DNA of 55,207 nt. Source: Cytophagales bacterium (GTDB taxonomy: Bacteria; Bacteroidota; Bacteroidia; Cytophagales; Microscillaceae). Shown one piece after another: positions 9,565-13,141 of this stretch; the first letter of the stretch is position 1; each line of letters begins with the position of its first letter. A program made the position numbers and the translations under genes. Below the pieces are notes generated by a model. The model saw only the letters and a list, made by a program, of their open reading frames with translations. It was not told where the DNA came from and searched no databases. The stretch is taken from NCBI GenBank assembly GCA_013298075.1, contig JAAFJG010000028.1, positions 1 to 55,207 on the forward strand. Reading direction: 5' to 3'.

Positions 9565-10407
9565 TCAATCTGGATTTTGGTAAAAACTATGATATTTTTT
9601 CAATCCTTCCATTGGACTTTGGGCAATATTTCCGACTAAATAATGATGTTTTTTGACTACATTTTTTAAAATATCTTGAAAATAATAAGCCACAGAACCT
9701 ACAAAATGCAAAGGGAAATTTTGACTTTCTGTGGGCAATAAAGGTAAATAAATAGATAAAAATGTATCAAAAGAACGATAAATTAATGCCGAAATATACT
9801 CATTTTCGATATTTTCGTGTAAAAAATAAGTAAATTCTGCTAAAAAACGATTAGGCGTTTTTTGTTTATATACATACTCAATAATATAATTTCTATCTAA
9901 ATCAGGATATTTTTCGAGTAATTTTTGATGAATAATAGAAGGAAGTTTTTGATGTAAAAAATCAACGAATAATATTTTTCCCAAATAAGCACCACTTCCT
10001 TCGTCCCCCAAAATATAACCCAAATTAAATTCTTCTCCATACAATTTTTGTCCATCAAAATAAGCCAAATTTGAGCCTGTGCCAATGATAGCAATATTTC
10101 CTTTTGTATCGCCACACGTTGCTTTGGCTACGCCAATCAAATCATTTTCGATGACAATTTTTGCGTCAGAAAAATATTTTTGAAAGATATTTTTAAGTAA
10201 ATTTTGATTATTTGAAGTAGCACAACCTGCCCCATAAAAATAAATTTCTTTGGCATTTGGAAATTTAATTTTTATTTCATTTTCAATATGATTTTCAATA
10301 TCATTTTCAGTGATTGCATTTGGATTTAAACCAACGCTTTCATATATTTCGTTTTGATACGCCCAAGTGGTTTTTGTGCCACCGCTATCTGCGATTAAAA
10401 TAGACAT
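9565..10407 (-). CDS. BadF/BadG/BcrA/BcrD-type ATPase, N-acetylglucosamine kinase-like
   Basis: A 280-residue member of the ASKHA sugar-kinase fold. The phosphate-1 loop is ADSGGTKTTW at residues 6-15, phosphate-2 and adenosine elements are IIGTGSNLAYFDG and GYILGDEGSGAYLG, and FVGSVAYYF precedes the C terminus. This pattern matches eukaryotic-type N-acetylglucosamine kinases and Bacteroidota homologues thought to phosphorylate amino sugars from cell-wall turnover or diet. Substrate specificity is not visible. Its start is 2 bases after the stop of the response regulator, so the two share a transcript. No transporter or deacetylase gene is adjacent. The family is secure, the substrate is not. 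Confidence 0.85.
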   Translation of the reverse strand: MSILIADSGGTKTTWAYQNEIYESVGLNPNAITENDIENHIENEIKIKFPNAKEIYFYGAGCATSNNQNLLKNIFQKYFSDAKIVIENDLIGVAKATCGDTKGNIAIIGTGSNLAYFDGQKLYGEEFNLGYILGDEGSGAYLGKILFVDFLHQKLPSIIHQKLLEKYPDLDRNYIIEYVYKQKTPNRFLAEFTYFLHENIENEYISALIYRSFDTFLSIYLPLLPTESQNFPLHFVGSVAYYFQDILKNVVKKHHYLVGNIAQSPMEGLKKYHSFYQNPD

Positions 10408-10409
10408 TT

Positions 10410-11114
10410 TTATTCCGCTCCTCCATCAGGCGAAAATTTATAGCCTACACTTTTGACAGTATAAATATATTTTTCACCAATTTTTTCTCTAATTTTTCGA
10501 ATATGCACATCAACCGTTCTTGGCAAAACATAAATATCAACTCCCCAAATATTATGCAATAAGTCATCACGACTAAATACTTTGTTTGGGTGTTGTGCCA
10601 AAAAATATAACAATTCAAATTCTTTTTTAGGTAAAATAATTTGCTCACCTGATAGTTCGACGGTGTAACTTACTCTATCAATTGATAAATTATCAATCGT
10701 TATTTTATCTTCATTTTCTTGTTTTTTTTTGCGTTCACGCCTAAAAAGAGCGGCAATTCTACTTATCAATGCACGTGGTTTGATGGGTTTGATAATATAA
10801 TCATCTGCACCGCCTTCAAAAGCTGCAATTTCAGAATATTCCTCGACTCTGGCAGTCAAAAAAATAACATAGCTATTAGTAGTTTGTGGTAAACTTCGTA
10901 ACAATCGACAAGTTTCTACTCCGTCCATTCTTGGCATCATAATATCCAAAAGAACTAAATCGGGTGCAAATTTTTTGGCAATTTCTACGGCATCAATTCC
11001 ATTATACGCATATTGGACTTCATAACCAACTTTTTCGAGGTTATATTGTAATAATTCGACAATATCGGCTTCATCATCAACGAGCAGAACTTTAATTACC
11101 TCTTTTAATTCCAT
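10410..11114 (-). CDS. OmpR/PhoB-type response regulator
   Basis: A 234-residue two-component transcription factor. The receiver domain (1-120) has acidic DDE at 13-15, phosphoacceptor Asp57 in LLDIMMPRMDG, Thr87 in FLTARV and Lys109 in YIIKP. The C-terminal winged helix (about 135-230) has the typical LPKKEFELLYFLAQHPNKVF and VDVHIRKIREKIG. No sensor kinase is adjacent. Histidine kinases at 28.5 and 41.6 kb are too distant for pairing to be assumed. It is co-transcribed with the downstream GlcNAc-kinase-like gene. A bidirectional terminator separates it from the YtxH gene upstream. Confidence 0.92.
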   Translation of the reverse strand: MELKEVIKVLLVDDEADIVELLQYNLEKVGYEVQYAYNGIDAVEIAKKFAPDLVLLDIMMPRMDGVETCRLLRSLPQTTNSYVIFLTARVEEYSEIAAFEGGADDYIIKPIKPRALISRIAALFRRERKKKQENEDKITIDNLSIDRVSYTVELSGEQIILPKKEFELLYFLAQHPNKVFSRDDLLHNIWGVDIYVLPRTVDVHIRKIREKIGEKYIYTVKSVGYKFSPDGGAE

Positions 11115-11149: not shown

Positions 11150-11191
11150 AAAAATAGTCAGAAAAAGAATGTCTTTTTTCTGACTATTTTT
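11150..11191 (-). terminator. Terminator after the YtxH gene
   Basis: A perfect 17-bp stem, AAAAATAGTCAGAAAAA (11150-11166) with its complement at 11175-11191, followed by T-rich sequence on both strands. The stop codon of the YtxH gene overlaps the stem edge. Confidence 0.85.
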
Positions 11192-11523
11192 TATTTATTT
11201 TTTTTTGATTTATTGGCATTAGCATTTCCTCCACTTTGTTCTGTGAGTAATTTATCGAGGTCTTCTGTTAATTTGCTTGCTTTTCTTTTGGTTGATTTTG
11301 TCAATTCTTCACTTTCATTTTTGGCATCATTAAATAATCCATCGTCATCTTCTGTTGTTTTTTGCAAAAATTTTTCTTGAAATTGCTGACGAAGGCGAGA
11401 AAATTGATAACTTAATCTGCTGCGTACTTGTTTTCCTTCGCCCGGTGCAAAAAGTAAACCTGCTCCAACGCCTAAAGCAGCACCTGTTATAAGTCCTAAT
11501 GCAAAACTTCCTAAACTTTTCAT
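11191..11523 (-). CDS. YtxH domain protein
   Basis: A 110-residue protein with an N-terminal glycine- and alanine-rich hydrophobic segment (LGLITGAALGVGAGLLFAPG, residues 9-28) followed by GKQVRSRL, the YtxH domain signature, then a charged, probably helical tail rich in Lys and Glu. The family is induced by general stress in Bacillus and is membrane-associated elsewhere; its molecular role is unknown. It appears monocistronic: TAACTTTG at 11552-11559 is a promoter and a strong hairpin ends the unit. The lysine-rich C terminus (NANKSKKNK) is typical. Confidence 0.85.
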   Translation of the reverse strand: MKSLGSFALGLITGAALGVGAGLLFAPGEGKQVRSRLSYQFSRLRQQFQEKFLQKTTEDDDGLFNDAKNESEELTKSTKRKASKLTEDLDKLLTEQSGGNANANKSKKNK

Positions 11524-11593: not shown

Positions 11594-13141
11594 TTATTTT
11601 TCTAATTTTTTTTTTCTAATTTTTTGAAAGAATAATTTTTGATAAAATTTATTGATAATTTTTAGATTATTTTTCAGAAAATAAGATTTTTTTTTGATTA
11701 TATTTCTGTTAGAATATTTTGTAAAAGAGATAATTTTTGTTATTTTATTTTTTTTGATGTCTATATTTTTTTCACCAATTTTTATCATTTGCCCTGTTAA
11801 TAAAGTAGCATTTTCACTGATATTATTCCATTGCGCTAATTGTTGGGTTGTAATATCGAACATTTTTACGATATTAAAAATATTTTTTTCTTGAGAAACT
11901 TTATAAAATCGTGCATTATTTCCACGTTGTAAATTTTCTTCTTGAATAAGTAAAATTTGTCCTATGAAAATAATATTGATGTTTCTCAAAACATTTTTTT
12001 CTCTCAAAGATGTAATTGGTACGTCATATTTTCGGCTGATGCTATACAACGTTTCACCTTTTTGAACAGTATGTTGTATTTTTATAGGTTGTGGAGTTAT
12101 TTTTTCTGGAATATTAGATACATATTCTTCTCCTTGATTTTCATTGTTAGTTTCGTTAATATTTTCTTTTATTTCTTCTTTATTTTTTATATCAATGTTA
12201 TTATTTTCAACAAATTTTTCTTTTTTATCATTATAATTTTTACACTTTGAAAATAAAAAAGTATAAGGATTATTATTAAATTCTTGGCGAATAACTGCAT
12301 AATAAACTTTATCGTCAGGCAAATTACGTATGTATTTTTTAATCCAAAAATTATCGGTTAAAAAATTATCTTTGTCTTCTTTTTTAATATTTTCACGAAT
12401 AAATTTAGGAACGGATTGTCCTACAGGTATTTCGCGTAAAACAAAACTAAAATTGCTTGCTTTTTCATGAATCAATGTTTCAATAAATAATGAAAAAGAT
12501 AGATATCGATGTATAAAATTAAAATGAGTAGATTGTTTTGATGGGTTGATATAAAATTCTTTTTTTTCTGCGTATTTATGATAATAACTTGCGTCAAATT
12601 GAAATAAATCGTCTTTTAATTTATGTAAAGAAATTTCTAAAGATACCATAGATAATAAAATATTATTAAAAAAAGCATTCTCTTTTTTAATAAATTCTGC
12701 AATTTTTGAGGTCGTTTCATGAATATTCCAACGCTCATCAACTTTTTTATTTTGGGGAGATTTTAATCCTAAATCGATATAAAAATCACTTCTTAATTGC
12801 CACATACCTTCTTGTGAAGGGTTATTATCACCTAATAAAGTAGGATTATGAAAAAAAGCAAGATATTTCATTTCTCTTGGTAAGCCTTTTTCAGCTAATA
12901 TTTGTTCTATCAAAGGCAAACTCATGACCATAAAAGGAAGTATATTTTCACAACTTTTGCACTGATTGTATTTACTTATCAAATTATCAGCTTCTTGCCT
13001 TAATGCATTCCAATAAGAAGTAGGAAAAGTAATTTGTTGATTTCCAAATTGAATAGTATCATTTTGGGCTTGTAAAGAAATAGAATGAAATTGGATATAG
13101 AGGTAAAGCCCCCATAAAACAGATGTGGTGAAGAACTTCAT
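11594..13141 (-). CDS. LysM protein with degenerate lytic transglycosylase domain
   Basis: A 515-residue exported protein with a signal peptide (about 1-25), a domain resembling MltD-type lytic transglycosylases (about 60-200) and two LysM peptidoglycan-binding repeats (about 357-402 and 409-455). The fold match is clear: LAEKGLPREMKYLAFFHNP, EGMWQLRSDFYIDLGL and DERWNIHETTSKIAEFI line up with MltD. The catalytic glutamate of the ESA motif is replaced: H98-N99 stand where Glu-Ser should be. The protein therefore probably binds peptidoglycan without cleaving it. The C-terminal ~60 residues are very basic. It is transcribed from TAATTTTG at 13179-13186. A scaffold or regulator of cell-wall enzymes is the likeliest role (inference). 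Confidence 0.75.
   Translation of the reverse strand: MKFFTTSVLWGLYLYIQFHSISLQAQNDTIQFGNQQITFPTSYWNALRQEADNLISKYNQCKSCENILPFMVMSLPLIEQILAEKGLPREMKYLAFFHNPTLLGDNNPSQEGMWQLRSDFYIDLGLKSPQNKKVDERWNIHETTSKIAEFIKKENAFFNNILLSMVSLEISLHKLKDDLFQFDASYYHKYAEKKEFYINPSKQSTHFNFIHRYLSFSLFIETLIHEKASNFSFVLREIPVGQSVPKFIRENIKKEDKDNFLTDNFWIKKYIRNLPDDKVYYAVIRQEFNNNPYTFLFSKCKNYNDKKEKFVENNNIDIKNKEEIKENINETNNENQGEEYVSNIPEKITPQPIKIQHTVQKGETLYSISRKYDVPITSLREKNVLRNINIIFIGQILLIQEENLQRGNNARFYKVSQEKNIFNIVKMFDITTQQLAQWNNISENATLLTGQMIKIGEKNIDIKKNKITKIISFTKYSNRNIIKKKSYFLKNNLKIINKFYQKLFFQKIRKKKLEK

Follow-up and report, generated by a model that had tools for sequence, protein, structure and literature searches.

What does a gene for an MltD-like lytic transglycosylase (LT) encode once the catalytic glutamate has been lost? 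The question is raised by P0001, an open reading frame on the minus strand (11594..13141, stop codon included; 515 aa) of the window, by which we mean the whole stretch of 55,207 nucleotides analysed here. All features of the gene lie on the same strand. Residues about 1-25 (13067..13141) form, by eye, a likely Sec signal peptide without a cysteine, in which the model places a helix at residues 2-21. An LT-like (MltD-type) fold with degraded catalytic motifs, delimited by alignment, profile, model and conserved columns, occupies residues about 27-226 (12464..13063), and directly after it comes a LysM-like unit at residues about 231-287 (12281..12451), recognised from the secondary structure of the model and from the conserved N264, W266, P275 and Y280. 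A low-confidence linker at residues about 300-352 (12086..12244; pLDDT <50 over residues 306-352) leads to two LysM domains found both by Pfam (LysM, E 1.1e-19) and in the model, at residues about 354-401 (11939..12082) and about 410-457 (11771..11914). The protein ends in a strongly basic tail (residues 458-515; 11597..11770; 34% Lys+Arg), for which model confidence is mostly low and in which an FLKNN.KI-like stretch is partly common to three congeners. We also noted a CKSC sequence at residues 61-64 (12950..12961): both cysteines are present in two congeneric orthologs, and three congeneric orthologs have the pair in an alignment whose other 18 rows are without it.

Whether the fold is really MltD-like was not evident from searches with the single protein. 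Pfam, NCBIfam and phmmer against the PDB gave matches only to the LysM half or to LysM-bearing families, and the window protein is not listed for Pfam SLT (PF01464) even at E<=10, at which HMMER filters drop many weak matches; the same model finds a dead relative (L009) over its cut-off, though not the window protein. A profile of 21 related domains, intact relatives included, had a single match in the PDB at E<=0.01, MltD of P. aeruginosa (E 1.9e-32). The predicted model of the domain (pLDDT 91.2, pTM 0.89) matched best three MltD entries (Z 13.7-13.8, 222-230 residues aligned, rmsd 4.0-4.3), followed by other LTs starting at Z 7.7, and Foldseek was concordant (best E 3.8e-5); as the alignments given to the predictor contained intact LTs, the model cannot count as independent evidence of homology. 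Computationally, the window protein thus has an MltD-like LT fold, and of the features that we used for family 1 (MltD-type) LTs it has two, the LT fold, found in the model and its structural match to MltD, and C-terminal LysM domains, found by Pfam. The initial annotation had recognised an MltD-like core with LysM repeats, and both are borne out by the relatives, the profile and the model, with the LysM-like unit as a further addition; its placing of the core at residues 92-150 captured the right fold and too small an extent.

The fold shared with P. aeruginosa MltD (8rhe, 8rhf, 8rhi) runs over window residues 31-287, including the LysM-like unit, and the order of LT and then LysM is also the same. 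In contrast to MltD, the window protein is without the catalytic Glu and its Ser and without the Tyr-Asn pair, and no cysteine was seen in its likely signal peptide, whereas E. coli MltD is a lipoprotein. Intact LysM-bearing LTs of other Cytophagales (for example L077, L085 and L102) have a homologous domain, and L077 combines LysM units with a Pfam SLT match (E 1.3e-18). These proteins differ in keeping Glu-Ser, WQ and a Tyr-bearing third motif; W114 and Q115 of the second motif are kept by the window protein too.

Residues 97-99 of the window protein read FHN, with H98 (codon 12848..12850) in place of the catalytic Glu; in the alignment, most active relatives show QES at these three residues. 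The AYN motif is likewise absent, with SLE at residues 167-169; we take ES and AYN to be the names of the LT catalytic motifs. The Glu position is occupied by Q and Y in two congeneric genomes and, over the 14 stand-alone copies from 15 Microscillaceae genomes, by K (four), E (three), H, Q, Y, R, G, L and D. Some residual activity may therefore persist somewhere in the stand-alone group, given the Glu in L006, L026 and L227 and the Asp in L229, whereas the Asn of the AYN motif is lost in all 14 copies. Aligning the domain with its relatives was the check that the initial annotation had proposed for its replacement of Glu by His; the loss of Glu stands and recurs across the family, but the His as such is not conserved. 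L227 (G009) and L229 (G010) come from one genus and carry LDY in place of AYN; the catalytic position is Glu in L227 and Asp in L229, so that here the original acid may be drifting instead of having been lost. L026 is, like L029, a weak, long-branch member of the stand-alone set.

Outside the family, Glu was kept in 93 of 93 related domains, counted from loci not recognised as family members, with the possibility that one gene counts twice (L065, L083) and with some metagenome-assembled genomes (MAGs) without a known family (L117 for one) among them. The N-terminal domain of L106 is without Glu and identical to a contig of the family genome G003, hence it belongs to the family and not to the outside set. 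In a later set from the order, Glu was kept in 22 of 22 loci, 12 from genomes new to the count and ten from genomes already counted; one extra partial stretch has a gap at the position. L117 (5869-8778), a protein of 970 residues from a Bacteroidota MAG, has SKE instead of AYN although its Glu is kept, and it fell among the dead domains on a long branch in the first tree.

Loss is not confined to the two motifs. We took the 56 columns conserved at >=85% in 61 active Cytophagales LTs and scored them in 13 of the 14 stand-alone copies, leaving out L010 as a near-copy of L009. The active letter was kept on average in 0.45 of these 13 rows, and 35 of the 56 columns were kept in under half of them, the lost ones including (active letter, window number) S99, S106, A110, V111, F116, Y168, G174, W208, Y209 and H216, which, judging from the LT motifs, presumably line the catalytic cleft. 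Ten columns were kept in >=0.9 of the rows: P88, Y93, W114, D135, R137, N160, N264, W266, P275 and Y280, the last four within the LysM-like unit. Newly conserved columns, counted in 11 of the 14 copies, numbered four, of which only L82 is invariant; with so few of them, a docking site newly shared by the stand-alone copies is not evident.

This pattern would suit a protein that does no more than bind peptidoglycan, with working LysM units and a dead LT fold that has no partner and acts as a structural spacer: conservation persists in columns of the fold and of the LysM-like unit, those of the catalytic motifs drift, and little new conservation has arisen. We regard this reading as unlikely. 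Among three congeners the LT-like part retains 50-55% identity. The LysM-like unit (45-57%) and the last LysM (44-48%) are about equally conserved and the middle LysM (53-65%) more so, whereas the linker lies far lower (16-31%); this points to some constraint of its own on the LT-like part.

Alternatively, catalysis might have been rebuilt or have moved elsewhere, E169 (codon 12635..12637) being one candidate for the acid. An intact Glu nearby was what the initial annotation had named as evidence against its reading, and E169 does stand at the Asn position of the AYN motif, where E or D is found in 9 of the 14 stand-alone copies. Acidic residues are thus common there, but not constant, the other five copies having Q, H, H, F and K, and neighbouring conserved letters have been lost as well (S99, S106, A110, V111, Y168, W208, Y209), so that we consider rebuilt catalysis quite improbable.

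We then considered how well the gene itself is maintained. Stand-alone copies occur in 14 of the 15 family genomes, with none recognised in G003, the matches of which were only partly read. In an order sample of 291 genomes (15 in the family), matches at E <1e-90 all fell in the family, in ten genomes, and the matches to family genomes as listed have no stops inside. The three genomes of the window's genus share the gene order pseudo-LT, YtxH-like protein (11191..11523, minus strand), response regulator with a Trans_reg_C domain (10410..11114, minus strand) and sugar-kinase-like protein, of the BadF/GlcNAc-kinase type by eye and without a Pfam match at 0.001 (9565..10407, minus strand). Between these congeners, dN/dS for the pseudo-LT was 0.40, 0.45 and 0.52 (Nei-Gojobori, 505-516 codons), compared with values for its neighbours of about 0.05 (response regulator), 0.07-0.13 (YtxH) and 0.18-0.37 (kinase-like gene) and, from one pair each, 0.14 for the tandem protein described below and 0.13 for an intact MltD-like LT; these estimates are crude, dS being near 1. 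Roughly, they suggest relaxed purifying selection on the pseudo-LT gene in the three congeners. Its identity to the window copy is 47-49%, as against 69-95% for the three neighbours, and such faster evolution also fits weak constraint. A decaying gene heading for loss could show the same fast evolution, the raised dN/dS and the one family genome in which no copy was recognised, but it is hardly credible for a gene present in 14 of 15 genomes, free of internal stops among the listed matches, kept in its local order in three congeners and with dN well under dS.

A second dead LT domain of the family lies in a tandem protein of about 700-780 residues, in which a dead LT domain is followed by LysM units and then by a live LT domain. 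The tandem is open in 10 of the 15 family genomes (G000, G001, G002, G003, G005, G006, G007, G008, G010 and G011), broken, split over contigs or weak in its N-terminal part in G004, G009 and G013, and no tandem was recognised in G012 or G014. Matches to a profile built from the dead domain reached E 1e-82 or better in 8 family genomes but in none of the other 178 genomes of the sample (best 6.5e-63). None of the 9 dead N-terminal domains in the column count has Glu, which is kept in 12 of 12 live C-terminal ones. The window genome has its own tandem (G000:C143, about 96.7-98.8 kb; L002, L071), with a dead N-terminal and a live C-terminal LT. Live domains have a longer stretch between the first two motifs than the dead ones do. 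In L011 (G004:C38) the tandem appears split into several frames, perhaps due to assembly errors.

In a tree of 76 rows, all 19 dead rows formed one group (99/97), as did the dead and live domains of the family together (96/87) and the live C-terminal tandem domains (100/91), beside which the dead group lies; in a tree of 71 rows the dead rows again grouped (93/89). Dead rows evolve fast, and long-branch attraction may help to join them. A tree of 92 rows had omitted duplicates, near-copies (L010 of L009, L024 of L022) and part of the outgroup loci; for that of 71 rows, five more were omitted as long or odd (L026, L029, the N-terminal domain of L106, L117 and L019) and 16 for thinning, and that of 76 rows has the same omissions plus five new rows. 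The stand-alone copies alone do not form a clade in the 71-row tree, yet such a clade is not rejected (p-AU 0.141). A topology that places the stand-alone copies with other Cytophagales LTs and the tandem domains outside was rejected (p-AU 0.030). With these two cautions, on long branches and on the stand-alone copies, one duplication with loss in one line fits well. On this basis we tentatively suggest, as a possible and not a probable history, that a duplication in ancestral Microscillaceae gave rise to a live and a dead LT lineage, and that the dead one supplied regulators with an LT fold, some built into the tandem and some standing alone, as the window gene does.

The genomic surroundings also link the stand-alone copies with intact LTs. 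In other Cytophagales, an O-methyltransferase gene precedes the intact LT, usually with an M16 peptidase before that: the methyltransferase was found at 33 of 74 outside loci, 30 of these 33 with the M16 peptidase too, the other 41 loci being mostly more distant LTs, some with cut flanks. The methyltransferase also lies just upstream of six of the 14 stand-alone family copies (L152, L153, L154, L155, L157 and L073). The genomes of the window's genus carry the methyltransferase gene at a different locus, where the neighbouring frames that were read include no LT. Pfam scans of the window gene's neighbours identified DAO, the response regulator, YtxH, DUF58 and an OmpH-like protein, with five more proteins without a match at 0.001, and no gliding or division gene was among them; the septal or gliding-related role that the initial annotation had considered thus finds no support in the neighbours examined. 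Rfam at gathering thresholds gave no match in the window.

Because the Glu was lost together with many other columns conserved in active LTs, and because a copy was retained in 14 of 15 family genomes, we agree with the initial annotation that this is a pseudoenzyme. Our preferred reading, which we hold to be on balance probable, is that the protein is a non-catalytic descendant of an MltD-type LT, exported and bound to peptidoglycan, whose emptied fold docks partner wall enzymes. LysM domains bind sugars or peptidoglycan. We infer that the protein is exported to the periplasm, where binding to the wall through its LysM units is plausible; partner wall enzymes would dock on the emptied LT fold, the likeliest of them being the live LT in the family's tandem protein. 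Such partners would be placed or tuned, much as amidases and LTs are by inactive LytM proteins.

A role as scaffold or regulator is plausible, and the docking surface in particular is modelled on DipM. DipM (PMC10336132) is a LysM protein whose degenerate LytM-type domain docks autolysins in its groove, soluble LTs among them, and which stimulates an LT; LytM-type proteins thus provide known examples of dead wall hydrolases steering live ones. The window protein resembles DipM and the inactive LytM regulators in being a LysM protein with a degenerate wall-hydrolase domain; its LysM domains are found by Pfam, and by eye its N-terminus looks like a signal peptide. Unlike that of DipM, which is of the LytM (endopeptidase) type, its dead domain is of the LT type. 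A degenerate LytM (Peptidase_M23) domain was not found in the window protein, for which Pfam lists only LysM-type families, and the NCBIfam models for DipM, LIC_10271 and similar proteins scored far under their cut-offs, with the DipM and LIC_10271 stretches falling in the LysM half. Retention of a dead hydrolase has a further parallel in vertebrate g-type lysozymes, whose fold also occurs among the matches of the model of the window protein (1gbs, 153l; Z 6.4-6.6) and of which duplicated members were reportedly kept after loss of activity (PMC4243810); these are, in contrast, animal proteins, and some are non-secreted.

Among the open-licence papers listed, screened by titles and abstract openings, we found neither a report of LT control by dead copies nor a dead LT lineage of this kind, whereas dead wall hydrolases as regulators are already known. 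If the tentative duplication history is true, LTs of the Microscillaceae would be controlled by their own dead copies. A dead LT lineage kept across the family, accompanied in most of these genomes by a natural tandem of dead and live domains, would offer a simple system in which to test such self-tuning, and should the protein prove to be only a wall anchor, it would still clearly exemplify the reuse of an LT fold in a non-catalytic role.
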